Assembly (NCBI RefSeq): GCF_021021415.1
Contig: NZ_JAINWJ010000025.1
Span: forward strand, 1 to 43,929
Direction of reading: 5' to 3'
DNA from: Martelella mediterranea
GTDB lineage: Bacteria; Pseudomonadota; Alphaproteobacteria; Rhizobiales; Rhizobiaceae
Length of the DNA: 43,929 nucleotides
A model generated the notes under the pieces. It did no database searches. It was given only the letters and a program-made list of their open reading frames with translations, and was not told the origin of the DNA. The first letter of the stretch is position 1. Every line of letters begins with the position of its first letter. Of the stretch, positions 732 to 13,106 are shown piece after piece. A program made the position numbers and the translations under genes.

Positions 732-1691
732 TCAAGCTTGCGCTTCGAGCAGGCGTTCGGCGGTGAACCTGTCGGTAATCAGAAGGTCGATGACGCCGGT
801 GCGGAGCGCGCCGCGAATGGCTTCTGTCTTGGAGCGGCCGCCGGCGAGCGCGATGACGCGGTCGACCTTGGACAGTTCCTCGAGCGTCATGCCGATCACG
901 CGATCGTGCAGCGGCGTCTTGACGAAACCGCCTTCGGCATTGAAGAAGCGCAGGCTGATATCGCCGACGCCGCCGGCTTCGGCGACTTCGGCAAGCTCGC
1001 GCGAGGAGAATACGTTGCCGCTGCGCGCCAGCATGCCGGACGGCTCCATGGCGCCGATGCCGACGATCGCCAGCGTGATCCTGGAGAACAGCTCCATGGT
1101 CTGGCGCACATAGGTATCGCCGAGCAGCACCAGCTTGGCCTCCCGCGATTGCGCCACGCCCGGCGCGCTCAGAAGATGCGCCTCGGCGCCCGTCAGCCGC
1201 GCCAGCCGGGTCGTGAGCTGGTTGGCATGGATCTGGACCGTCGGATCGCCCATGCCGCCGAGCGTCTGCACCACGTAGCGGGCCTTGCCGGATTTCATCG
1301 GGTGAATATTGTCCACCATTCGCAGAATGGTTTCCGACCAGCTCGAAACCCCGATGATTTCGCCGGCCTGCAGCGTCGCTTCAAGAAAATGCGCCGCCGC
1401 TTCGCCGATCCGCGCCATGATCGCGCCATCGCGATCCTCCGAACACTCGACCACGATCGCCTCGGACAGGCCGAACCGGTTCCTGAGGCCGGATTCGAGT
1501 TCGGCATAGGTTCCGGAGGGGGCGACCACCGTGGTGCGGACGATCTCTTCTTCCTGCGCGCGCTTCAGCATGCGCGACACCGTCGCCTGCGAAATCCTGA
1601 GATGCTTGGCGATTTCCGACTGACGCTGTCCCTCGATATGATACATCTGCGCCACGCGGGCGATCATCCGTAATTCGTTGAGGCGGGACAT
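732..1691 (-). CDS. SorC/DeoR-type sugar-binding transcriptional regulator
   Basis: 319 residues, the normal length for SorC-family regulators. The N-terminus carries a helix-turn-helix (about residues 20-50, with QSEIAKHLRISQATVSRMLK). The rest is the SorC sugar-binding domain, a NagB-like fold that binds a phosphorylated sugar and forms tetramers; GGMGD, GIGAM and the IALAGGRSKTEAIRGAL stretch are typical. EryD of erythritol catabolism is a known relative. It is the last gene of the leftward kinase/transketolase set, 42 bp after the kinase stop. Palindrome GAATATTTATTC at 1721-1732 sits in that gap and recurs near both divergent promoters at 5 kb, so the protein probably controls the whole locus and itself. 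The likely inducer is the phosphorylated ketose made by the adjacent kinase. Family call strong; ligand inferred. Confidence 0.92.
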   Translation of the reverse strand: MSRLNELRMIARVAQMYHIEGQRQSEIAKHLRISQATVSRMLKRAQEEEIVRTTVVAPSGTYAELESGLRNRFGLSEAIVVECSEDRDGAIMARIGEAAAHFLEATLQAGEIIGVSSWSETILRMVDNIHPMKSGKARYVVQTLGGMGDPTVQIHANQLTTRLARLTGAEAHLLSAPGVAQSREAKLVLLGDTYVRQTMELFSRITLAIVGIGAMEPSGMLARSGNVFSSRELAEVAEAGGVGDISLRFFNAEGGFVKTPLHDRVIGMTLEELSKVDRVIALAGGRSKTEAIRGALRTGVIDLLITDRFTAERLLEAQA

Positions 1692-1720: not shown

Positions 1721-1732
1721 GAATATTTATTC
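1721..1732. promoter_or_regulatory. Candidate SorC operator, copy 1 (upstream of regulator gene)
   Basis: GAATATTTATTC is an inverted repeat (GAATA, two bases, TATTC) between the kinase stop codon (1734-1736) and the regulator ATG at 1691. It matches the GAATAnnTAT(T/G)C pattern also seen at 4988-4999 and 5181-5192. Placement suggests autoregulation through an internal promoter. Binding is inferred, not shown. Confidence 0.55.
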
Positions 1733-1733
1733 T

Positions 1734-3197
1734 CTACACGGCGAATGTGGTCCGGGCAATCGCTTTTGTCCATTCTCCAATAGAACGATCGCGCCTGTCG
1801 GCCGGCACGGCAGGCGCAATTTCAGGCTCGGGTCGGGCAAGCGCCGAAAGCGCCTCCAGATCGGGCCAAAAACCGACAGCAAGCCCGGCCAGATGGGCCG
1901 CGCCGATCGCCGACGCCTCGGCATTGCGGCACGGCGTGACCGGGCGATCGAGATAATCCGCGACGAGTTGCATCAGGAAGCGGTTGCGGCTCGGCCCGCC
2001 ATCGACGGAGATCCGCCCGACATGACCGGCCGCTCCCGCCATGATCGCGTAGACGTCGTGCACCTGGAAGGCAAGGCTTTCGGCCGCGGCTCGGGCGATA
2101 TGCGCCGGCTTGGTGGAAAATGACAGGCCGCAGACGAGACCGCGCGCATCGGCATCCCAGTGCGGCGAGCCGAGCCCGACATGGGCGGGCACCAGCGCGA
2201 CGCCGCCGGTATCCTCGACGGTTTCGGCAAGCACAAGCAACGCCTCGACGCTTTCGAGACCGAGCAACTCCGCCGTCCATGGAAAGATCGAGGCGCTGAC
2301 CAGAATATTGCCCTCGAAGGCGAAGGTCGGGCGACCGGCGATAGACCAGGCGATGGTGGTGGTGATCCCGTCCGGCGGCACGATGTAGTCGGCAAGCGTC
2401 GTCATCACCGATGAGCCAGTCCCGAATGTCATCTTGCCGTCGCCGGTGGCAAAGGCGGCATGGCTGAACAGCGCCGCATGGCTGTCGCCGATGGCCGACG
2501 CTATTGGAAGGCCGTCTGGAAGGACGCCGGCGTCTTTTGTGGCGGCAAAGATATGGGCGCTGTCGAACACGGAAGGCAGCATGACGGGATCGACGCCGAA
2601 GAGCCTGCAGAGATCATCGTCCCAGCAACCTTCGGCGAGGTTGAAAAGCTGGGTGCGTGCGGCATTCGATCGGTCGGTGGCATGGACACTGCCGCCGGAG
2701 AGCCTCCAGATCAGCCAGCTATCGACGGTGCCGATGCAGATGTCGCTTGCCGCGCGTCCGTGATTGTCGAGCAGCCAGGCGACCTTGGTTGCGGGAAACA
2801 TCGGATCGAGCGGCAGGCCGGTGCGGGCGATGACATCGGCTTCGTAGCCGGCCTCGCGCAACGCCCTGCACGCGTCGGCCGTGCGGCGGCACTGCCAGCT
2901 GATGACCGGACCAAGAGGGCGGCCGGTATTGCGGTCCCAGATCAGGATCGATTCCCGCTGATTGGAAATGCCGAGCGCGACGATTTCGGTCTCCGGCGCC
3001 TTCTTGAGGCATTCGGCAATCGCGATGGCGGTTGCCTGCCAGATAGCCTCGGCATCCTGCTCGACCCAGCCGGATTTCGGATGGCTGATGGGCACGGTGG
3101 CCGAGGCGCTGGCGATGATGTCGCCGGCATGGGAGACCAGCACCGCCTTAGAATTGGTGGTGCCCTCGTCAATCGCCAGGATCGCCTTGCCCGTCAT
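1734..3197 (-). CDS. FGGY-family carbohydrate kinase
   Basis: 487 residues, typical for FGGY sugar and polyol kinases. The N-terminal domain opens with the phosphate-binding loop IDEGTTNSKAV (about residues 8-18), close to glycerol-kinase-like DxGTT motifs. The C-terminal domain has GKMTFGTGSSVM (about residue 245) and VDGGPSRNRFLMQLVADYL, the C-terminal FGGY signature region. It should transfer phosphate from ATP to a ketose or polyol in the cytoplasm. The start at 3197 follows the upstream transketolase stop by one base, indicating tight co-transcription. Next to a split transketolase and two dehydrogenases, the natural substrate is probably the ketose made by one of the dehydrogenases (a pentulose, tetrulose or branched ketose such as apulose). 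Glycerol kinase is possible from sequence style alone, but the context argues against it. Confidence 0.88.
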   Translation of the reverse strand: MTGKAILAIDEGTTNSKAVLVSHAGDIIASASATVPISHPKSGWVEQDAEAIWQATAIAIAECLKKAPETEIVALGISNQRESILIWDRNTGRPLGPVISWQCRRTADACRALREAGYEADVIARTGLPLDPMFPATKVAWLLDNHGRAASDICIGTVDSWLIWRLSGGSVHATDRSNAARTQLFNLAEGCWDDDLCRLFGVDPVMLPSVFDSAHIFAATKDAGVLPDGLPIASAIGDSHAALFSHAAFATGDGKMTFGTGSSVMTTLADYIVPPDGITTTIAWSIAGRPTFAFEGNILVSASIFPWTAELLGLESVEALLVLAETVEDTGGVALVPAHVGLGSPHWDADARGLVCGLSFSTKPAHIARAAAESLAFQVHDVYAIMAGAAGHVGRISVDGGPSRNRFLMQLVADYLDRPVTPCRNAEASAIGAAHLAGLAVGFWPDLEALSALARPEPEIAPAVPADRRDRSIGEWTKAIARTTFAV

Positions 3198-3198
3198 G

Positions 3199-4158
3199 TC
3201 ATCCCTTCCGCGCGATCAGCGCTTCGGCGCTTTCGGCGATCGCTTCAGGCGCCATGCCGAAATCGTCCAGCAGCGTGTTGGCCGAACCGGTATGGGCGAA
3301 AACGCCCGGCACGCCAAGCCGTTTCATCGGCACGGGCGCGGCGTCTACCACGACTTCGGCGACGGCGCTGCCCAGCCCGCCGAAGATCGTGTGCTCCTCG
3401 CAGGTCAGGATCGCGCCGGTCTCACGGGCCGCGGCGATGATCGCATCCTCGTCGATCGGCCTGACACTTGCCATGTTGAGCACGCGGGCGGCAATGCCGC
3501 GCTGTTCAAGAATGGCGGCGGCCAGCACCGCCCGGTGGGTCAGAACCCCATTGGCGATAATGGTGAGGGCGTCGCCGTCACGCAGCATGTCGGCCTTGCC
3601 GAGTCTGAACTGATGGCCTTCCGGAAGCAGGTCCGGCACGCCGACGCGGCTGAGCCGCAGGAAGCAGCCGCCCTGGTGTTCAGCAGCCCAGCGAATGGCG
3701 GCGGCAGTCTCGATGCGGTCGGCGGGCGCAATCACCGGCACGTTGGGCAATGCGCGGATCCAGGCGAAATCCTCGATCGAATGGTGGGTCGGGCCGAGTT
3801 CGCCATAGGCCATGCCGGAGGAGATGCCGACAAGCTTCACATTGGTTTCGGAATAGGCGACATCGGCCTTGATCTGCTCCAGCGCGCGCCCGGTCAGGAA
3901 CGGGGCTGCGGCGCAGACGAACGGGATCTTGCCGCCATTGGCGAGACCCGCGCCGACGCCGACCATGTTCTGCTCGGCAATGCCGACATTGATCAGCCGC
4001 TCGGGAAATTTCTCGCCGAAGCCGCCGAGCTTGGAGGAGCCGACGGAATCATTGCAGACGGCGACGATGTTGCTGTCCTGTGCCGCCAGTTGCTCCAGCG
4101 TCTCGGTGAAGGCGTTGCGGCAGTCGTGCAGTTTCGCGGTTTCGAACGGCATGTTCAT
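3199..4158 (-). CDS. Transketolase-like, C-terminal subunit
   Basis: 319 residues, covering only the pyrimidine-binding and C-terminal domains of transketolase. The conserved glutamate that activates the thiamine ring is in LINVGIAEQNMVG (Glu62). It is followed by GPTHHSIEDFAWIRALPNV and a C-terminal domain with TCEEHTIFGGLGSAVAEV. The partner subunit supplies the diphosphate-binding half, and the two genes overlap by 4 bp (ATGA), so the enzyme should assemble from both. Such split enzymes occur in general carbon metabolism and in dedicated routes such as apulose-4-phosphate breakdown. Here the operon suggests action on the phosphorylated ketose made by the kinase, moving a two-carbon unit to an aldose phosphate. 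The exact substrate cannot be read from the sequence. Confidence 0.9.
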   Translation of the reverse strand: MNMPFETAKLHDCRNAFTETLEQLAAQDSNIVAVCNDSVGSSKLGGFGEKFPERLINVGIAEQNMVGVGAGLANGGKIPFVCAAAPFLTGRALEQIKADVAYSETNVKLVGISSGMAYGELGPTHHSIEDFAWIRALPNVPVIAPADRIETAAAIRWAAEHQGGCFLRLSRVGVPDLLPEGHQFRLGKADMLRDGDALTIIANGVLTHRAVLAAAILEQRGIAARVLNMASVRPIDEDAIIAAARETGAILTCEEHTIFGGLGSAVAEVVVDAAPVPMKRLGVPGVFAHTGSANTLLDDFGMAPEAIAESAEALIARKG

Positions 4159-4976
4159 CGGATGGCCTCCTCGAGTTCGGCCATGGCCTGGCGGTATTGT
4201 TCTTCATTCGGCACCTTGTGGTGCCAGGCGACATTGTCCGACATGAAGGAGATGCCGTGGCCCTTGTTGGTGTGGGCGACGATGCATTTCGGTCTGCCGG
4301 GGGTGATGGCATCGGCAGAAAGCGCGCGGCAGATCGCCTCCATGTCATGGCCGTCGATTTCTTCAACAGCCCAGCCGAAGGCTTCGAGCTTCGGCGCAAA
4401 CGGCGCGATATTATTGGTGTCGGCCAGCCGCGCGCCCTGCTGCAGGCGGTTGTGGTCGATGATCAGCGTCAGGTTGTCGAGGCCGAAATGGGCACCGGCC
4501 ATGATCGCCTCCCAGTTGGATCCCTCCTGCATTTCGCCGTCGCCGGTGATGACGAAGGTGCGCCAGCCGGCCCTGTCGAGCTTTGCCGCCTTCGCCATGC
4601 CGACGGCGACCGGAAGACCATGGCCGAGCGGCCCGGTATTGGTTTCGACGCCCGGAACCTTGACCCGGTTGGGATGCCCGTTGAGCCGCGAGCGGTGCTT
4701 GAGGAAGGTCGAAATCTCGTCCTTCGCGATGAAGCCCTTTTCAGAGAGCACAATGTAGAGCGCGAGCGCCGTATGGCCCTTCGAAAGAACCAGCCGGTCG
4801 CGCGCGGGATCGAGCGGGGCCGCGGGATCAACCTTCATTGTGTGAAAGTAGAGCGCGGTCAGGAGATCGGTGACGGACATTTCGCCGCCGACATGGCCGG
4901 CACCGGCTTCGTAGACAGCCGTAACATCGCGGCGTCGGATGCGATTGGCGATAACGCGCAGTTCCTGGGGGTCCAT
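4155..4976 (-). CDS. Transketolase-like, N-terminal (thiamine diphosphate-binding) subunit
   Basis: 273 residues, the usual size of the stand-alone N-terminal half of transketolase. It shows SKGH (65-68), GPLGHG (115-120) and the metal/diphosphate motif from GDGEMQEGSNWEA (GDG 145-147) to DHN (Asn176). The motif GHVGGEMS near residue 28 replaces the usual SGHPG. It is the first gene of the leftward operon. The start at 4976 has AGGTG four bases upstream, and a sigma70-type promoter lies at 5007-5035. With the downstream subunit it should form the active cytoplasmic enzyme. The family is clear; which sugar phosphate it uses is inferred only from neighbours. Confidence 0.9.
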   Translation of the reverse strand: MDPQELRVIANRIRRRDVTAVYEAGAGHVGGEMSVTDLLTALYFHTMKVDPAAPLDPARDRLVLSKGHTALALYIVLSEKGFIAKDEISTFLKHRSRLNGHPNRVKVPGVETNTGPLGHGLPVAVGMAKAAKLDRAGWRTFVITGDGEMQEGSNWEAIMAGAHFGLDNLTLIIDHNRLQQGARLADTNNIAPFAPKLEAFGWAVEEIDGHDMEAICRALSADAITPGRPKCIVAHTNKGHGISFMSDNVAWHHKVPNEEQYRQAMAELEEAIR

Positions 4977-4987
4977 ATGTCACCTAT

Positions 4988-4999
4988 GCATAATTATTC
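4988..4999. promoter_or_regulatory. Candidate SorC operator, copy 2 (leftward promoter)
   Basis: Read leftward this is GAATAATTATGC, matching GAATAnnTAT(T/G)C. It starts about 8 bases downstream of the leftward -10 box (5007-5012), so it would cover the transcription start of the transketolase operon, a classic repressor position. Copies 1 and 3 support it. Confidence 0.6.
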
Positions 5000-5006
5000 T
5001 TATACC

Positions 5007-5035
5007 ATTAAACATGCGCAATCGATCTTTGTCAA
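5007..5035 (-). promoter_or_regulatory. Sigma70-type promoter for transketolase/kinase operon
   Basis: On the minus strand a perfect -35 TTGACA (5035-5030) is followed after 17 bases by -10 TTTAAT (5012-5007, five of six consensus bases). Transcription would start near 5000, about 25 bases before the first gene at 4976, inside the candidate operator. Confidence 0.7.
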
Positions 5036-5136
5036 GGCGGACTGGGCGCCGCAAAGCCAAGATAGTCATTCCATTCTCACGAAGAAAATAGAGAGAAGAA
5101 AGCTTTCGCGAAGGAAATTTGTAATTCAGCCACGGC

Positions 5137-5165
5137 TTGACACGCCTAAATGCATCCGTTATGGA
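5137..5165 (+). promoter_or_regulatory. Sigma70-type promoter for ABC importer/dehydrogenase operon
   Basis: A perfect -35 TTGACA (5137-5142) is followed by a 17-base spacer and a weak -10 TATGGA (5160-5165). A start near 5172 would give a short leader that holds the candidate operator (5181-5192) and a strong ribosome site (GGAGGAGG, 5197-5204). It lies back-to-back with the leftward promoter, about 100 bp apart. Confidence 0.55.
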
Positions 5166-5180
5166 TTTTCCATCAAGTGT

Positions 5181-5192
5181 GAATACATATGC
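5181..5192. promoter_or_regulatory. Candidate SorC operator, copy 3 (rightward promoter)
   Basis: GAATACATATGC matches GAATAnnTAT(T/G)C and differs from copy 2 only in the two spacer bases. It lies in the leader between the rightward promoter and the ribosome site, so bound repressor would block early elongation or initiation. Confidence 0.6.
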
Positions 5193-5209: not shown

Positions 5210-6190
5210 ATGGCGATGACACAGGAGTCTCCTGCGCAGAAGCCGCGCCTTTCGGAGGTGGTATCGCTGTCGGGCGCGACCGGGCCGCTGATCGGTCTGG
5301 TGCTGCTGTGCATCTTCCTGACCTTCGCGACCGACTCGTTTCTGTCCTTCCGCAATTTCCTGAACATTCTCGACCAGATCACCGTGCTCGGCATCATGGC
5401 CGTCGGCATGACCTTCGTCATTTTGATCGGCGGCATCGATCTCTCCGTCGGCTCCGTGCTGGCGCTGGCGATGATGGTGCTCGGCTATCTCAATGTCGAA
5501 GCCGGCATGCCGATGATCGTCGCCATCGCGGGCGCGCTCGCCGCCGCCGCGGTCTGCGGCATCGTGTCGGGGCTGATGATCACCGAATTCAAGGTGCCCG
5601 CCTTCATTGCCACGCTGGCGATGATGTCGGTCGCGCGCGGGCTTGCCAACATGATCACAAACGGCTCGCAGATCATCGGTTTCGCGCCCTGGTTCAACAT
5701 GAGCGCGATCATCCGCTATGGCGGGTTCCTGACCATGACGGTCGCCGTCATGCTGGCGGTGTTCGTCGTCGCGATCCTGTTCCTGCGCTATCGCCAGGGC
5801 GGCCGCGTGCTCTACGCGATCGGGGGCAATGCTGAAGTCGCGCGCCTTGCCGGCATCAATGTCCGCAGAACCACGATCCTGGTCTATACGAGCTGCGCGG
5901 CTCTGGCGGGCCTTGCCGGCGTACTTCTGGCCGCAAGGCTCGATTCCGTGCAGCCAAGCTCCGGCGTTTCCTACGAGCTCGATGCGATCGCGGCCGTGGT
6001 CATCGGCGGCACCAGCCTTTCGGGCGGATCGGGCGGCGTCGTCGGCACGATCATCGGGGTGCTGATCATCGGCGTGTTGCGCAACGGCCTCAACCTTCTG
6101 TCGGTCTCGCCGTTTCTGCAGGCCGTCATCATCGGCGCGGTCATCGTGCTCGCGGTCGCTGCCGAAACCTTCAAGCACAGGAGCAGGTAG
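5210..6190 (+). CDS. Ribose-type ABC transporter permease
   Basis: 326 residues from the chosen ATG. A start at 5189 is possible, but the strong ribosome site GGAGGAGG (5197-5204) lies five bases before the ATG at 5210 and would be inside the gene otherwise. The protein is highly hydrophobic, with about eight to ten membrane segments. It matches the BPD_transp_2 (RbsC/XylH) family: VLGIMAVGMTFVILIGGIDLSVGS near residue 60 is the family hallmark, and YAIGGNAEVARLAGINV is the cytoplasmic coupling loop. It forms the channel for a monosaccharide or polyol. It is the first gene of the rightward operon, which is unusual because the binding protein more often comes first. Confidence 0.92.
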   Translation: MAMTQESPAQKPRLSEVVSLSGATGPLIGLVLLCIFLTFATDSFLSFRNFLNILDQITVLGIMAVGMTFVILIGGIDLSVGSVLALAMMVLGYLNVEAGMPMIVAIAGALAAAAVCGIVSGLMITEFKVPAFIATLAMMSVARGLANMITNGSQIIGFAPWFNMSAIIRYGGFLTMTVAVMLAVFVVAILFLRYRQGGRVLYAIGGNAEVARLAGINVRRTTILVYTSCAALAGLAGVLLAARLDSVQPSSGVSYELDAIAAVVIGGTSLSGGSGGVVGTIIGVLIIGVLRNGLNLLSVSPFLQAVIIGAVIVLAVAAETFKHRSR

Positions 6191-6277: not shown

Positions 6278-7213
6278 GTGAAAACCTACAAGAAAATCAT
6301 CGCGGCTGCGCTCGCATCCGCAGCACTGGCCGGACCGGCGCTCGCCGAAGACGTCAACAAGATCGGCCTGGCCGTGCCGAACCTGCAGGCCGACTTCTTC
6401 AACCAGATCAAGCTTGGCGTTGAAAACTACGGCAAGGAAAAAGGTATCGAGGTCATCGTGGTCGATGCCAAGAACGATACCGCGACCCAGGTCAGCCAGG
6501 TTCAGGACCTGATGACCCAGGGCATCGACGCCTTCATCTACATCCCCGCGGGCGCGGCAGCGGCCGCCGTCCCGACCCGCCTCGCCCGCGCTGAAGGCAT
6601 TCCGGTGATCAATGTCGACCGCACGCCCGAAGGCGCGCCGGGCGATACCTTCATTGCCGGCGAGAGCGTCGAATCCGCCTATCAGGTCTGCAAGCACATC
6701 ATCGATCTCGCCGGCGGCGAGGGCAAGATGGCGATGATCCACGGCCAGAAGGGCACGACGCCGGAAGTCGACCGCACCAAGGGCTGCATGCGCGCGATCG
6801 AGGAAAATCCGAACGTTGAGCTGGTCACCGAACAGTGGAGCCAGATGTGGTCGCCCGACGAAGGCTTCTCCATCGCCCAGAACATGCTGCAGGCGCATCC
6901 GGACCTGAAGCTGATCTTCGGTCAGGCTGACGGTCTCGCCATGGGCGCCGCCAAGGCTGTGGACGTTGCAGGCCTCTCCGACCAGGTCATCATCGGCGGC
7001 TATGACGGCGACGTCGCGGCGCTCGAATACCTTGCCAAGTGCGAAGGTCCGTTCGTGGCGACCGCTACCCAGAGCACCCAGATGATGGGCCGTCTTGCCG
7101 TCGATTCCGCGATTAAGGTTGCCGCCGGCGAGAGCGTGCCGGAGCGCCAGACACCGAATGCGGTTCTGACCACCTGCGAGAATGCGCCGCAGTTCGTCGA
7201 GAACCATCCGTAA
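6278..7213 (+). CDS. Periplasmic sugar-binding protein (ribose type)
   Basis: 311 residues starting with GTG at 6278, chosen because AGGAGGAG lies close upstream and the signal peptide begins there. The signal peptide is clear: KTYKK, a hydrophobic core rich in Ala, and a cleavage site after GPALA (about residue 24). The mature part is a Peripla_BP_4 (RbsB-like) protein with KIGLAVPNLQADFFNQIKLG at the start, VVDAKNDTATQVSQVQDL, and INVDRTP, IFGQADGLAMGA and GGYDGD further on. It should capture the sugar or polyol in the periplasm and deliver it to the membrane complex. Residues Phe/Asn in DFFNQ and Asp/Arg in NVDRT match typical sugar contacts. The ligand cannot be named from sequence. Confidence 0.93.
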   Translation: MKTYKKIIAAALASAALAGPALAEDVNKIGLAVPNLQADFFNQIKLGVENYGKEKGIEVIVVDAKNDTATQVSQVQDLMTQGIDAFIYIPAGAAAAAVPTRLARAEGIPVINVDRTPEGAPGDTFIAGESVESAYQVCKHIIDLAGGEGKMAMIHGQKGTTPEVDRTKGCMRAIEENPNVELVTEQWSQMWSPDEGFSIAQNMLQAHPDLKLIFGQADGLAMGAAKAVDVAGLSDQVIIGGYDGDVAALEYLAKCEGPFVATATQSTQMMGRLAVDSAIKVAAGESVPERQTPNAVLTTCENAPQFVENHP

Positions 7214-7250: not shown

Positions 7251-8744
7251 ATGACGGAAAACGGCAAATCTCCAATCCTGTCCCTGAGGGGCATTCGCAA
7301 GTCCTATGGACCTGTCGAGGTGCTGCACGGGATCGATCTGGATATCCATGCCGGCGAAGTCGTGGCGCTGCTCGGCGAAAACGGCGCCGGTAAATCCACC
7401 GTTTCAAACGTCATCTCCGGAACGGTCCTCCCCTCGTCCGGCGCGATGACCTGGCAGGGCGCGGCCTACGCGCCCGCCAACCCGCGCGAGGCGATCGACG
7501 CCGGCGTCGGCATGATCCATCAGGAACTGCTGCTGCTGCCGCATCTGACGATCGCGGAAAACATCTTCGTCGGCCGCTATCCGATGAGGAACGGACGTGT
7601 CGACCGCGCCGAGATGAACCGGCGCGCCGAGCACGGTCTGGAACGGCTCGGCCTCAATATTTCGCCGCGCCGCAAGGTCGAGAACCTGTCGACGGCGAGC
7701 CAGCAGCTGATCGAGATCGCCAAGGCGCTGACGCTCAACGCGAAGCTCCTCATCCTCGACGAGCCGACAGCCGCGCTCGGCGGCGAGGAAACCCGGCTCC
7801 TGTTCAAGCAGATCGAGCGGCTGAAGGCCGAGGGCGTCGGGATCATCTACATTTCCCACCGGCTGGAAGAGATCAGGCAGATCGCCGACCGCATCGTGGT
7901 CATGCGCGATGGCGACAAGGTTCAGGAGTTCGATACCGCCGACCTGCCGGTGCGCACCATTGTCGAAGCGATGGTGGGCCGCAGCATGGAACAGATGTTT
8001 CCGCCGCTGCACCAGCCGAGCGAGGAGACCGTGCTGGAGGTCAAGGGCCTTTCGGGGCCGAGCGGGCGGTTCAACGATGTGAGCTTCTCGGTCCGGCGCG
8101 GCGAAATCTTCGGCATAGCCGGGCTCGTGGGCGCGGGGCGCACCGAACTGGTGCGCGCCATTGCCGGCGCCGACCCGATCGCCGCCGGCACGATCACGCT
8201 GAACGGCGAGGACATCACCCCCGCCTCGCCGGCAGAGGCGATCGCCAACGGCATCGTGCTTGTGCCGGAGGACCGCAAGCTGCAGGGCGTGATCCTCGAT
8301 CACACGATCGCCGAGAATATCGCTTATTCGAATTTCGAGACGGTCGGCCGCGGCGGCTGGCTGAGCAGGAACCGTATCCGCGCCTTCGCCGACGACAATA
8401 TCGCGAAATTCGGCGTCAAGGGCAAAGGCCACCAGAAGGCGGGCGAGATGTCCGGCGGCAACCAGCAGAAGGTGGTGATCGCCAAATGGCTCGCCCGCAA
8501 TCCGCGCGTCGTGCTGCTCGACGAGCCGACCCGCGGCATCGATGTCGGCGCGCGATCCTCGATCTATGAAATCATTCACGATCTTGCCGAGAACGGCGTC
8601 GCCGTGATCGTCGTCAGTTCTGACCTCGAGGAGGTGCTCGGCGTCTCCAACCGCATCCTCGTGATGGCGGCCGGACGGCAGACGGGTATTCTGGACCACA
8701 GCGAGGCCAATGACATCTCGGTGATGGAACTGGCTACGGCCTGA
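7251..8744 (+). CDS. Sugar ABC transporter ATP-binding protein, two ATPase domains (RbsA type)
   Basis: 497 residues with two nucleotide-binding domains, the usual RbsA/XylG layout. Domain 1 has Walker A GENGAGKST (about residue 43), signature LSTASQQLIEIAKAL and Walker B LLILDEPTAAL. Domain 2 has the degenerate loop GLVGAGRTELVRAI, expected for this family, then EDRKLQG, signature MSGGNQQKVVIAKWL and Walker B VVLLDEPTRGID. It powers uptake through the permease encoded at 5210. The gene follows the binding-protein gene by 37 bp and precedes a dehydrogenase by 19 bp, so uptake and first oxidation are co-expressed. Confidence 0.94.
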   Translation: MTENGKSPILSLRGIRKSYGPVEVLHGIDLDIHAGEVVALLGENGAGKSTVSNVISGTVLPSSGAMTWQGAAYAPANPREAIDAGVGMIHQELLLLPHLTIAENIFVGRYPMRNGRVDRAEMNRRAEHGLERLGLNISPRRKVENLSTASQQLIEIAKALTLNAKLLILDEPTAALGGEETRLLFKQIERLKAEGVGIIYISHRLEEIRQIADRIVVMRDGDKVQEFDTADLPVRTIVEAMVGRSMEQMFPPLHQPSEETVLEVKGLSGPSGRFNDVSFSVRRGEIFGIAGLVGAGRTELVRAIAGADPIAAGTITLNGEDITPASPAEAIANGIVLVPEDRKLQGVILDHTIAENIAYSNFETVGRGGWLSRNRIRAFADDNIAKFGVKGKGHQKAGEMSGGNQQKVVIAKWLARNPRVVLLDEPTRGIDVGARSSIYEIIHDLAENGVAVIVVSSDLEEVLGVSNRILVMAAGRQTGILDHSEANDISVMELATA

Positions 8745-8763: not shown

Positions 8764-9549
8764 ATGAACCGCTTCAAGGGCAAAACCATTGTCGTTACCG
8801 GCGGCAACAAGGGCATCGGGCTTGCGATCGCCACCCGGTTTGCGCAGGAGGGCGCCAATCTCGTGATCGCCTCCGTCGAGGCCGAGGTCGAACAGGCGGC
8901 GCAGTCGCTTTCGGAGGCGACCGGCGCGAAGACGGCCGGCGTGATCTGCGACGTGACCGACCCGGAAGCCGTCAAGGCGCTTTACGACCGCGCTGAAGCT
9001 GAGTTCGGCGGCGTCGATATCTCCGTGCAGAACGCCGGCATCATCACCATCGCCAAGGTCGAGGACCTGACGGTTGCCGAGTGGGATGCCACGATGGCGG
9101 TCAACACCAAGGGCGCGTTCCTGTGCTGCCAGCAGGCGATCCGCCACATGCGCGCTTCGGGCAAGGGCGGGCGACTGATCAACATCGCCTCCGGCCAGGC
9201 GCGCGACGGGTTCATCTACACCCCGCATTATGCCGCCTCGAAATTCGGCGTCATGGGCATGACCCAGAGCCTTGCCAAGGAAGTGGCGCTCGACAACATC
9301 ACCGTCAACGCCATCTGCCCCGGCATCATCAAGACCGATATGTGGGATTATAACGACCGCGTCTGGGGCAAGATGCTCGGCGATTTCGGCCCCGGCGAAC
9401 TGATGGCGAGCTGGGTGGAGAACATTCCGATGAAGCGCGCAGGCGAAGGCAAGGATGTTGCCGGCCTGATCGCCTTCCTCGCCAGCGATGACGCCGAATA
9501 CATCACCGGCCAGACCATCAATGTCGATGGCGGCCTGATCATGTCATAA
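8764..9549 (+). CDS. Short-chain dehydrogenase/reductase (probable polyol or sugar dehydrogenase)
   Basis: 261 residues, classical SDR. The cofactor loop is TGGNKGIG (12-19), an acidic stretch follows the second strand, NAG is present near residue 90, and the catalytic set is Ser143, Tyr156 and Lys160 (YAASK). The C-terminus has TGQTINVDGG. It should oxidise a hydroxyl group with NAD(P)+ or run the reverse reaction. A GGGAG ribosome site precedes the ATG. Located right after the importer ATPase and opposite a kinase and transketolase, it probably turns the imported polyol or sugar into a ketose. It is clearly diverged from the second SDR downstream, so the two may act on successive or alternative substrates rather than being a recent duplication. 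Confidence 0.9.
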   Translation: MNRFKGKTIVVTGGNKGIGLAIATRFAQEGANLVIASVEAEVEQAAQSLSEATGAKTAGVICDVTDPEAVKALYDRAEAEFGGVDISVQNAGIITIAKVEDLTVAEWDATMAVNTKGAFLCCQQAIRHMRASGKGGRLINIASGQARDGFIYTPHYAASKFGVMGMTQSLAKEVALDNITVNAICPGIIKTDMWDYNDRVWGKMLGDFGPGELMASWVENIPMKRAGEGKDVAGLIAFLASDDAEYITGQTINVDGGLIMS

Positions 9550-9642
9550 CGCGTCCGGAAGAAGCTTCCCGACGCCAGATCAAGAGAGCCGGCTTTAAAC
9601 GGGCGCGACCCGTTGCCGCCGGACGAGAAGAAGGTCACCATC

Positions 9643-10440
9643 ATGAATGACGCCGCAATCAGTTTGAACGCTCCGGCCCTGTTCGATCTTTCGGGCCGGG
9701 TGGCTCTGGTGACGGGCGCCGGCAGCGGCATCGGCCAGCGCATCGCCATGGGACTTGCCCAGTGCGGCGCCGACGTCGCGCTCGTCGACCGGCGCACGGA
9801 TGACGGGCTTGCGAACACCGCCGCCTTCATCGCGAAGACCGGACGCCGGTCCTTGCAGATCGCCGCCGATGTGACCTCGGAGGCGGCCCTTGAGGACGCC
9901 GTTGCGAAAACCGAAGCCGAACTCGGGCCGCTGCGTCTGGCGCTGAATGCCGCGGGCATCGCCAATGCCAACCCTTGCGAGGAAATGCCCGAGGATCAGT
10001 ATCAGACGCTGATGGACATCAACATGAAGGGCGTATGGCTGTCGTGCCGGGCAGAAGCGCGTGCCATGCTTTCCCACGGCAAGGGCGGCTCGATCGTCAA
10101 CATCGCCTCGATGTCCGGCGTGATCGTCAATCGCGGCCTCAACCAGGTGCACTACAACGCGTCCAAGGCCGGCGTGATCCACATGTCGAAATCGATGGCG
10201 ATGGAATGGGTCGATCGCGGCATTCGCGTCAACTCGATCAGCCCCGGCTATACCGCCACGCCGATGAACACCCGGCCTGAAATGGTGCACCAGACCAAGG
10301 AATTCGAAAGCCAGACGCCGATGCAGCGCATGGCAAGCGTCGACGAAATGGTCGGCCCCGCCATATTCCTGCTCTCCGACGCATCCTCCTACTGCACCGG
10401 CGTCGACCTGCTGGTCGATGGCGGCTTCTGCTGCTGGTAA
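9643..10440 (+). CDS. Second short-chain dehydrogenase/reductase (polyol/ketose type)
   Basis: 265 residues from the ATG at 9643, where AGAAGG lies just upstream; an in-frame TTG at 9613 falls in a hairpin and is less likely. Cofactor motif TGAGSGIG is near residue 30. Asp in ALVDRR after the second strand suggests NAD(H) preference. NAAGIAN is present. Tyr171 and Lys175 (YNASK) are catalytic, with Ser158, thirteen residues before Tyr, as the likely third member (Ser156 is also close). The style (VNIASMSG, SPGYTATPMNTRPEM) resembles arabitol, threitol and xylulose/sorbitol dehydrogenases. It closes the rightward sugar operon and is followed by a strong hairpin. Substrate unproven. Confidence 0.9.
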   Translation: MNDAAISLNAPALFDLSGRVALVTGAGSGIGQRIAMGLAQCGADVALVDRRTDDGLANTAAFIAKTGRRSLQIAADVTSEAALEDAVAKTEAELGPLRLALNAAGIANANPCEEMPEDQYQTLMDINMKGVWLSCRAEARAMLSHGKGGSIVNIASMSGVIVNRGLNQVHYNASKAGVIHMSKSMAMEWVDRGIRVNSISPGYTATPMNTRPEMVHQTKEFESQTPMQRMASVDEMVGPAIFLLSDASSYCTGVDLLVDGGFCCW

Positions 10441-10475: not shown

Positions 10476-10748
10476 ATGTCGCTGTAATTCGGCATAGTCG
10501 TTCGACGACACCGAACTTGCTCTATACGTCTTTGAACGATCAAAAGCACGTGAGGCCCCGGCACCGTCCCGAATGACAGGCTGATTCTTCTGCAGAAAAG
10601 CAACCTTGATTGACACAGGCGAACACAATCGTCGACAAACGCTATATTGCGGCGACAAACTCGCAATGCATTGAAGGTCATTGCAACGGCATGGCCCCGA
10701 TTGTGAGCGCCGCCCGGCGCTGGCTTCGCAATTGAAAGCAAGGTGGAT
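10476..10748 (+). promoter_or_regulatory. Leader of the LuxR-type regulator gene with a 20-bp-spaced direct repeat
   Basis: No gene is seen here. CGACAAAC occurs at 10633-10640 and again at 10653-10660, exactly 20 bp apart, which puts both copies on the same face of the helix. A -10-like TATATT lies between them (10643-10648) without a good -35, as expected for an activated promoter. A TTGACA at 10610-10615 is too far from it to pair. The repeat could be the binding site of the downstream regulator or of another activator. Confidence 0.4.
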
Positions 10749-13106
10749 ATGGACGGCGAGATGGCGAATGTGGCTCACATCGACATGCTCGCAGAGCGGG
10801 TGAGCGCCAGCGCCCGCAAGTTCATCGTCATCACCGCCGTCGCCGGCATGGGCAAGAGCCTGCTTCTGAGGAAACTCTCAAAGGCCCTTGATGTCACCGT
10901 GTGTACGACCCCGGAAGCGGATGGGACGGCGACCGGGCGGACGTTCCTGTGGGATATTCCATCCCGGGCTGAAACCATCGCCTTCGACGAAGCATTCTTC
11001 GAACACTTCGAGCGGGTGGTCATCGCCCGCCGACCCGAAACGGATGTGCCGGGGATCGAGCGCTTGATCGTCCATGGCGATGCCCTTTTTCTCGACGATC
11101 ATGACCTGCTGCTGCCGGAAGGCGATCCCGCGCATCGCTATCAATGCGGCTGGCCGGTTCTTCATGGCGTCGATCTTGAAGACCCCGCAAGACGGCATCA
11201 GTTCAAAGCCTATATCGGTTTTGAAATCCTGCGCCCGCTGACAGCCATGCAACTCGCCACCCTCTGGCGGATGTTCAACGGCCACGCGATTGCTGGGAGC
11301 GCCGCCGAGCTGCCATTCCTGCCTTTCGTCGAGAGGACGGCCGACGGCATCCTCTCGGCCTGCGCCAGCGGCGAACTGCGCGGGATCGTGCGCGATGCGG
11401 CCAATGAGGAGATCGGGCGGCGCATGGAGCGCTTCGAGGCGGCGACGCCGCTTGCCCGCGCGCTGCATCGGTCCGGCCACACTGAAAAGGCAATATCCGC
11501 GCTTCAGTCCGCCGGGATGGAGGAACCGGCCGTCCGTCTTTTTGCCGAGGCGGGTGGGGTTTTCTATATCCATATCGATGGCCCTGAGGCGTATGCCCGT
11601 GTGCTTTCGGGCTTCAGCCCCGCGATTTCGGCCGATAACGAGACCGTGGTGATCGCCAATGCCATGCGAGCGCTCAAGGCCGGCGAGACGGGGCGGGCGA
11701 AGAAGCTGATCGCCGATCGTTTCGGCCGCCAGAGCCTCGACCCGATGGCCGTCTTTGCGGGTGGCGCGCCCTACTCCCTGTCGTTCAAGGGCTTCCGGCT
11801 GGTGATGATGATCTATGAGGATATCGTCATCACCGACGCCATGTTCGAGCGGCTTTACGACTATCTCGACGAGTTGCCTCTGGAAGCGGCGCTGCTGCGC
11901 GGGTCATTCTATAATGCCGTGCTTGAATTCTATATCCGTCAGCGCCGCTTCAACGAGGCCGAAATGGCTGCGGCGCATGCGCTCTCCAGCTATCGTGCGG
12001 CCGGCGTTCCGCTGCTTGTCTTCTACATCTGCGTCCATCAGGCCGTGATCCGGTTGCTTTCGGGCGACGCCATCGGCGCCGGCAGCCGCATCGCCGAAGC
12101 CCGGCGGCACATGGCGGCGGTCGGCTTCGAAAGCCCTGCCGACGCGCGGATCCTGCGGCTGATCGAAGCCTGCCACGCCTATGAGGATGGCCGCCCGCAG
12201 GTGCTGATTGCCTTCATCAACCATGAATTCGATACGTTTTCACAGGCCGAAACCTGGCCAAGCCTCGTCGAATTCGCGCTCCACTACGGCAGCCAGGCGC
12301 TCAGCGAACATTTTTCAACGATATCCGCGCTCGGCTTTCTGGATCGCTGGCGCCTCCACCAGACGCATGACCGCCAGCTGCGGTTCATGATCGAAATCCG
12401 CGCCGCGCTGGTGATGCAGAACGGCAACCGCTGGAACGATGCCGCCGCGACCCTTTCCGCCATGCAGATGCGGATCAACCGCACACGGGTCGAGGCTGCG
12501 CTGGACGAACTCGCCCGGCTTTCGATGCACGATGAAATCGAGGTGGCCTTCGCATGGCTCCGACAGATCGTCCATGAGCGACCAGACCGCGCCTATCTGG
12601 ACCGCCAGATCAATGCGATGATTGCCAACGAAAGGGTGACGGGCCGCCAGCGGCGTGCGCTGCAGATATGGCTGGCCTTCGTGTTGAAACGGACCGGCCG
12701 GGCGACGGAAGCCCGCGCGGTTCTGCAGCGCATGTTCGATGATGCCGCCCGCACCGGCACGATCGCGCCACTTCAGGAGGAACGCCGGTTTCTCGGCGAG
12801 CTGATGGGCGACAGCCGCATCGAAGGTTTTGTCTCGGCGGCAGGCCCGGCCCGCCGGATCATGAAACGGTTGTCCGAAACCGGCATCAAAGGGCGCACGA
12901 TCGAGCAGGAATCCGGGTTGTCGCGTCGCGAGGTTCGCATTCTGCTGATGATCTGCGAGGGCGCCTCTAACAAGTTCATTGCCGGCCGGCTCGGTATCTC
13001 GGAATCGACGGTCAAATTCCACGTGACCAATCTTTACCGCAAGCTCGGCTGTACAAGACGCCGCGAGGCCATTGCGGTGGCGCGGGCGCGCAACTGGTTG
13101 CACTGA
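10749..13106 (+). CDS. LuxR-family transcriptional regulator, large ATP-binding (MalT/LAL) type
   Basis: 785 residues from the ATG at 10749, which has AAGG five bases upstream; a GTG at 10743 would add two residues. The N-terminus has a P-loop AVAGMGKS (30-37), followed by a STAND-type ATPase region with FLDDHDLLL as a probable Walker B. The middle is a long helical, tetratricopeptide-like section. The end is a LuxR helix-turn-helix: LSRREVRILLMICEGASNKF, then GRLGISESTVKFHV and LYRKLGCTRRREA. MalT-like proteins bind ATP and an inducer, oligomerise and activate transcription. The next operon, in the same direction 194 bp on, is the natural target. The N-terminus is short for this class (MalT is about 900 residues), so the sensor part may be reduced. 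Confidence 0.9.
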   Translation: MDGEMANVAHIDMLAERVSASARKFIVITAVAGMGKSLLLRKLSKALDVTVCTTPEADGTATGRTFLWDIPSRAETIAFDEAFFEHFERVVIARRPETDVPGIERLIVHGDALFLDDHDLLLPEGDPAHRYQCGWPVLHGVDLEDPARRHQFKAYIGFEILRPLTAMQLATLWRMFNGHAIAGSAAELPFLPFVERTADGILSACASGELRGIVRDAANEEIGRRMERFEAATPLARALHRSGHTEKAISALQSAGMEEPAVRLFAEAGGVFYIHIDGPEAYARVLSGFSPAISADNETVVIANAMRALKAGETGRAKKLIADRFGRQSLDPMAVFAGGAPYSLSFKGFRLVMMIYEDIVITDAMFERLYDYLDELPLEAALLRGSFYNAVLEFYIRQRRFNEAEMAAAHALSSYRAAGVPLLVFYICVHQAVIRLLSGDAIGAGSRIAEARRHMAAVGFESPADARILRLIEACHAYEDGRPQVLIAFINHEFDTFSQAETWPSLVEFALHYGSQALSEHFSTISALGFLDRWRLHQTHDRQLRFMIEIRAALVMQNGNRWNDAAATLSAMQMRINRTRVEAALDELARLSMHDEIEVAFAWLRQIVHERPDRAYLDRQINAMIANERVTGRQRRALQIWLAFVLKRTGRATEARAVLQRMFDDAARTGTIAPLQEERRFLGELMGDSRIEGFVSAAGPARRIMKRLSETGIKGRTIEQESGLSRREVRILLMICEGASNKFIAGRLGISESTVKFHVTNLYRKLGCTRRREAIAVARARNWLH

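Follow-up and report, generated by a model that had tools for sequence, protein, structure and literature searches.

Which protein recognizes the three copies of a short palindromic 12-mer, GAATANNTATKC, at a sugar locus of Martelella mediterranea? The locus lies on contig NZ_JAINWJ010000025.1, of which positions 1 to 43,929 were analysed as a single stretch (hereafter the window). It displays a divergent arrangement: genes for a split transketolase, a kinase and a regulator run on the minus strand from 4976, while those for a sugar ATP-binding cassette (ABC) transporter and two dehydrogenases run on the plus strand from 5210. In all likelihood the palindromes are operators of the SorC/DeoR-subfamily regulator encoded in the same locus (sorC, 732–1691), a prediction from sequence in which the protein would repress both divergent promoters. 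The basis for this view is the position of the sites, their conservation, the promoter geometry and the lack of the motif in relatives whose regulator is missing or broken; from these observations we infer binding and the sign of control.

Sites, promoters and the sign of control

Exact matches to the 12-mer occur at 1721–1732 (both strands), 4988–4999 (minus strand) and 5181–5192 (plus strand), and nowhere else in the 43,929 bp, which bears out a sequence-only reading of this DNA that had placed it at these three positions. The copy at 4988–4999, GAATAATTATGC, is the predicted operator of the transketolase promoter, and that at 5181–5192, GAATACATATGC, the predicted operator of the ABC-permease promoter. 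The third predicted operator, GAATATTTATTC at 1721–1732, sits in the 42-bp gap between the kinase stop codon and the sorC ATG (1692–1733), 1 bp past the former and 29 bp ahead of the latter, confirming its assignment to the gap before the regulator gene. Each of the three has counterparts among orthologous sites. The sequence-only reading had termed the element a 12-bp palindrome with an unspecified N-N centre. The first description is accurate for the 1721 copy, the only perfect palindrome, while the 4988 and 5181 copies each carry one altered arm base; as to the second, the centre of operon sites is usually W-W, from which the 5181 site (CA) deviates. The 5181 site also has the lowest weight-matrix score of the three (15.2 bits). 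None of 100 dinucleotide shuffles of the window attained the observed four strand matches (mean 0.02). Because the sites sit in AT-rich DNA, the gaps were additionally shuffled by themselves: the divergent intergenic region (233 bp, 57.5% AT) yielded two sites in 0 of 20,000 shuffles and one site in 48 of 20,000, and the 42-bp gap yielded one site in 7 of 20,000. When up to two mismatches were allowed the window contained 28 matches against a chance mean of 22.7; this count is at chance level and the signal therefore resides in the exact sites.

The sites are conserved in relatives. A scan of a collection of 84,980 species returned 211 relatives of the regulator, of which the best 80 loci were kept. 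Of these 80, 76 have tktN (the N-terminal transketolase half) and the permease gene in divergent orientation, with the kinase gene and sorC downstream of tktN. Both divergent sites, with no more than one mismatch, were retained in the same intergenic region in 70 of the 76 syntenic loci, the outcome of a check upstream of orthologous operons that the sequence-only reading had proposed. A strict site pattern, G[AC]ATAWWTAT[GT]C, matched 151 times in the two gaps of the 76 syntenic loci (30,019 bp including margins) vs once in the other 1,353,093 bp. Upstream of tktN it was found in 120 of 125 loci, with two or more sites in 86; among 359 scrambled palindromes that served as the control, the top two, which are near-copies of the motif, reached 88 of 125, the next 34, and the median was 0. 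Alignment of the orthologous sites widens the consensus to TGAATAWWTATTCA, in which the T...A flanks are informative and T/A are the commonest outer bases. The refined predicted site is TGAATA-WW-TATTCA, with TGAA-N6-TTCA as its core; GAA was present in 331 of 474 half-sites, the remainder being mostly GCA by eye.

Both divergent operons are preceded by sigma70-like promoters. That of tktN-tktC-kinase-sorC (5007–5035, minus strand) comprises TTGACA at 5035–5030, a 17-bp spacer and TTTAAT at 5012–5007, and that of the ABC/short-chain dehydrogenase operon (5137–5165, plus strand) TTGACA at 5137–5142, a 17-bp spacer and TATGGA at 5160–5165. The coordinates earlier given for the two promoters were right, as was the claim that a copy of the motif lies directly downstream of each: the distance from the −10 box to the 12-mer is 7 bp on the transketolase side and 15 bp on the permease side. 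If transcription starts the usual ∼7 bp past the −10 box, the 14-mer at 4988 would span about +1 to +14 and that at 5181 about +9 to +22. In the orthologous promoters the palindrome likewise comes after the −10 box, and TTGAC is conserved 5′ of the operator on the transketolase side (102/104 promoters; 49/50 in a dereplicated set) and on the permease side (104/104; 43/43 dereplicated).

A protein bound just 3′ of the −10 boxes would block RNA polymerase, and repression is therefore the likely sign of control at both divergent promoters. A regulator dimer on each palindrome, over or right past the start point, would shut the promoter of the transketolase halves, kinase and sorC, and that of the sugar ABC transporter and dehydrogenases, while autoregulation is a probable further role of the third copy, ahead of sorC. 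The signal that releases the regulator is likely a phosphorylated sugar produced by the kinase, and the presence of the kinase gene within the operon fits this proposal. SorC has been reported as both an activator and a repressor, and some SorC-family proteins activate. It is unlikely, however, that the regulator mainly activates from these sites, as both promoters have near-consensus −35 boxes and carry the site 3′ of the −10 box, which is a repression geometry.

The promoter regions have two further features. One is a ATTTTCCATCA-like block at 5165–5175 (plus strand), which separates the permease-side operator from its −10 box. It scores as much as 2 bits per position across 53 dereplicated sequences and, reading ATTTTCCATCA / ATTTTCCAGCA, is kept across families almost as strongly as the operator. 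A candidate TTGCCC box for a promoter of sorC itself, at the end of the kinase gene, overlaps conserved coding sequence and thus allows no conclusion on the sorC promoter.

Association of the site with SorC

The link between the palindrome and the regulator is illustrated by 127 distinct tktN promoters. The site is present in 115, all from genomes that encode an intact SorC orthologue; its gene is in the same stretch in 109 cases, and in the other 6 it is in another stretch, fetched separately, of the same genome. The remaining 12 promoters lack the site; 11 are from genomes in which SorC was not found and one is from a genome with a broken sorC. The 11 genomes showed no SorC match at E ≤ 1e-4 in the 10–16 kb fetched around the operon, and none at E ≤ 1e-90 genome-wide among the matches listed. 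In the genome with the broken gene (G850, L186:2582-3344) the reading frame of sorC changes near residue 44, and ∼64 inner residues are gone. When 132 SorC matches were screened for stops, one stop was found, at the C-terminal end, and four matches were shortened C-terminally.

The association is also retained where gene order differs. Where SorC identity is 50–61%, gene order in the operon has changed, in most cases so that sorC and tktN diverge, and the new divergent region holds one or two sites. In two genomes of one genus whose tktN fell beyond the stretch first fetched, a site before that gene was expected, though the expectation was not recorded in advance; both carry TGAATAAATATTCA ∼140 bp upstream. 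In locus L079 a SorC orthologue lies ahead of a different ABC operon, and the site begins 44 bp ahead of the point where the first open reading frame (ORF) of that operon was mechanically called to start. In genome G424 the regulator and kinase genes are on one contig and tktN, tktC and an ABC operon on another; sites precede the kinase gene, sorC, tktN and the ABC operon. It is the regulator, rather than the enzymes, that the motif accompanies, both through rearrangement and where the regulon is dispersed. The co-occurrence of motif and SorC over the 127 promoters, the rearranged operons and the DeoR-like core of the site (see below) support the sequence-only proposal that these are predicted operators of the SorC regulator.

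Some genomes contain two sorC copies, which either flank the gene for short-chain dehydrogenase 1 (L151:6001-8918) or lie apart (L136, L183). Among the SorC-less loci, three of 11 were inspected: L217 has a DeoR-type (PF00455) regulator gene near the operon, and in L226 and L227 a fucose-isomerase-like gene lies immediately upstream of tktN. This suggests that the split transketolase/kinase core in SorC-less relatives is fed by different first steps.

As a sequence marker the 12-mer is less specific than its position. The Martelella genome under study (G000) contains it at 8 places (10 strand rows, vs 5 rows for a reversed-pattern control). Of the five places outside the operon, four are centred on C or G and fall within long stop-free frames. 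The fifth (G000:C96:52091-52102, L008) is GGAATATATATTCC, located between divergent ORFs that, read from sequence, are RpiR-like and Gfo/Idh/MocA-like. Beyond the operon its 12-mer, GAATATATATTC, is found a single time each in G003, G005 and G006; G004 and G008, two genomes without a SorC match, also have it once, and all five are of the same genus as G000. We exclude it as a site of the regulon, since in G000 it reads GGAA-N6-TTCC between the two divergent ORFs; the place fits an IolR-type site. In three relatives that were searched the operon sites have a W-W centre, whereas G or C occupies the centre of most other matches. Of 13 genomes in the genus, four have SorC (E ≤ 1e-60), and each of these carries a pair of strict operon sites and one place elsewhere; the nine without SorC hold the 12-mer at one place or none. 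The genome scans that the sequence-only reading had suggested agree with its proposal, with the caution that the bare 12-mer occurs in SorC-less genomes too.

Several observations, in addition to the dual role reported for SorC, weigh against the proposed assignment. The W-W form of the 12-mer matches 58 of 101 related genomes, some many times, while SorC (E ≤ 1e-60) is found in 12 of the 101, all of which are among the 58; because many SorC-less genomes also contain it, the 12-mer by itself does not mark the regulon, which is identified by position. The loci are phylogenetically dependent, and the 12 motif-less promoters represent about three lineages, not twelve independent losses. The genome-wide search for SorC scored the five best first-look candidates per genome only, and the weight matrix was trained on these very sites, although the strict pattern agrees with it in 111 of 115 promoters. 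In G234 the second sorC copy (L136, L183) has no motif nearby. The site before sorC, the least conserved of the three, is present in 88 loci (reading GAATAAAAATTC or a near variant in most Rhizobium loci) and missing in 24, including five paralogues or loci of other gene order; autoregulation would thus be lineage-specific there. Finally, known relatives use paired half-operators (39–45 bp), and no second palindrome was found beside any site in the window.

Another regulator encoded elsewhere, for instance of the RpiR/IolR type, could own the palindromes. A GGAA-N6-TTCC motif is described for inositol genes of Caulobacter in the accessible part of PMC2597717; it shares the inner core GAA-N6-TTC with the window sites, and the outlying intergenic match of the Martelella genome adjoins the RpiR-like ORF. 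The IolR-type motif differs, however, in its outer bases, which are G/C as opposed to T/A in the window, and belongs to another regulator family; the orthologous sites do not display GGAA-N6-TTCC, their conserved flanks being T/A. In addition, the motif goes with SorC in the 127 promoters, including dispersed G424, and in L079 the SorC gene beside a different ABC operon keeps the site. A foreign owner is consequently very unlikely. It is more improbable still that the palindromes owe their conservation to some other role as AT-rich promoter elements: they do follow −10 boxes within AT-rich DNA, but no clear promoter is seen in the gap that holds the third copy, their frame is that of a fixed palindrome, and the motif is absent where SorC is absent though tktN remains. 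The probability that the palindromes arose by chance is negligible, since, despite the chance-level count of two-mismatch matches, the shuffles of the window and intergenic DNA and the conservation contradict it, as the sequence-only reading had expected for three copies at promoters, and the contrast in site density between gaps and flanks refutes it.

Likeness to known operators and possible bridging

The SorC-family protein DeoR of Bacillus subtilis provides the closest parallel to the predicted operator. In the accessible text of PMC11229326, its left half-operator, ATTGAACAAAATTTCAAT (OL18), contains TGAA-N6-TTCA, the dra-nupC-pdp operator is a 39-bp element (−60 to −21) of two half-operators, and Arg39 of DeoR is positioned at the half-site G in the structure. 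DeoR is of the same subfamily as the window regulator, controls a catabolic operon and recognizes a sequence equal in core and spacing to the core of TGAATAWWTATTCA; by contrast, its half-operators are paired, while the window sites are single palindromes 3′ of −10 boxes and 193 bp apart. The best solved-structure matches of the DNA-binding domain of the regulator, by sequence match alone, are SorC (2w48), presumably from Klebsiella, and LsrR (4l5i, 4go1), presumably from Escherichia coli; residues 1–60 match these domains as well as 7bhy and 8r7y. With the DeoR residue numbering that we assume, Arg39 aligns with the arginine of the ISQATVSR helix of the window protein, and this arginine is retained in the distinct SorC helices listed, except in L078. 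The possibility that each site has a further half-operator at a distance of 22 bp, like that of DeoR, was considered and rejected, as the conserved block is not readable as TGAA-N6-TTCA. The ATTTTCCATCA-like block on the permease side displays no clear half-site and may be a degenerate half-operator.

In the same source (PMC11229326, accessible text) DeoR and CggR tetramers of B. subtilis, as dimers of dimers, hold two adjacent half-operators. What may be envisaged here differs in that separate operators would be bridged: one SorC tetramer might hold both divergent operators, looping the ∼140–193 bp between them and shutting both promoters together. We consider this a tentative proposal, more doubtful than probable. 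The window has one palindrome per promoter, and in relatives the spacings are mainly 106–107, 137–141, 148–151, 158–162, 170–172 and 187–193 bp, close to the steps of a 10.5-bp ladder. When each TktN cluster at 85% identity contributed a single value, the spacing phase gave R 0.60 and p 2.5e-5 (n = 29, <250 bp), vs R 0.33 and p 0.26 (n = 12) for clusters at 80% identity; an earlier, smaller set of cluster values behaved likewise. Parsimony applied to spacing changes of 4 bp or more returned p 0.012 (20 changes between states <250 bp); in a larger set the values were p 0.047 (22 changes) and p 0.08 (20 changes <60 bp), and periods of 8.5, 10.25 and 10.5 bp fitted equally well. A test on 16 independent pairs gave p 0.14. 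Spacings off the ladder occur before tktN (144–146, 155 and 167 bp) and before another promoter in L228 (184 bp), and some loci have one operator only in the divergent region. Helical phasing as proof of looping was rejected as established in view of the 80% clusters, the independent pairs and the off-ladder spacings, and is kept as a lead. The inter-operator spacing leans to a 10.5-bp period, a hint of tetramer bridging that the tree-controlled tests leave as no more than suggestive.

Genes of the locus and meaning of the regulon

The regulator (732–1691, minus strand) was assigned through profile and structure-sequence matches. It consists of a helix-turn-helix domain and a C-terminal Sugar-bind domain (PF04198; E 2.5e-67, 227 bits against a cut-off of 27), and among the named relatives found Martelella limonii is the nearest, with a SorC that is 99% identical. 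Family searches identified the other genes. On the minus strand these encode an FGGY kinase that is glycerol-kinase-like yet below the GlpK cut-offs (1734–3197) and the C-terminal and N-terminal halves of the split transketolase (tktC, 3199–4158; tktN, 4155–4976). The plus strand encodes an RbsC-like sugar ABC permease (5210–6190), an RbsB-like sugar-binding protein (6278–7213), an ABC ATPase (7251–8744) and two short-chain dehydrogenases (8764–9549 and 9613–10440), the second of which exceeds the NF004774 cut-off. At 10743–13106, 3′ of the dehydrogenase genes, is an ORF of 787 amino acids with a C-terminus that by eye resembles a LuxR-type helix-turn-helix.

The substrate of the operon may be some sugar or polyol; searches of NCBIfam, PDB and the literature indicated no specific sugar. 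D-apiose, through a split apulose-phosphate transketolase, was considered as a candidate, and nothing retrieved supports it. No description of this regulon was found in titles and abstract openings of the papers listed, a scope outside which subscription journals and regulon databases fall. The main text of a regulon paper (PMC5343134) does not mention SorC, and a string matching the motif in a Pseudomonas enzyme paper is, in the accessible part, a portion of a mutagenesis primer (PMC4669500).

Regulators of the SorC/DeoR subfamily are known; what is very probably added here is a local regulon with a well-defined predicted operator. A member of this regulator class can thereby be matched to a specific 14-bp site, for which several alphaproteobacterial families provide support, and the regulon can be recognized by position in other genomes, including one in which it is dispersed. 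The locus offers a clean test case for whether SorC-family tetramers bridge separate operators, and the regulon may help to identify the substrate of the split-transketolase pathway in rhizobia and marine alphaproteobacteria.

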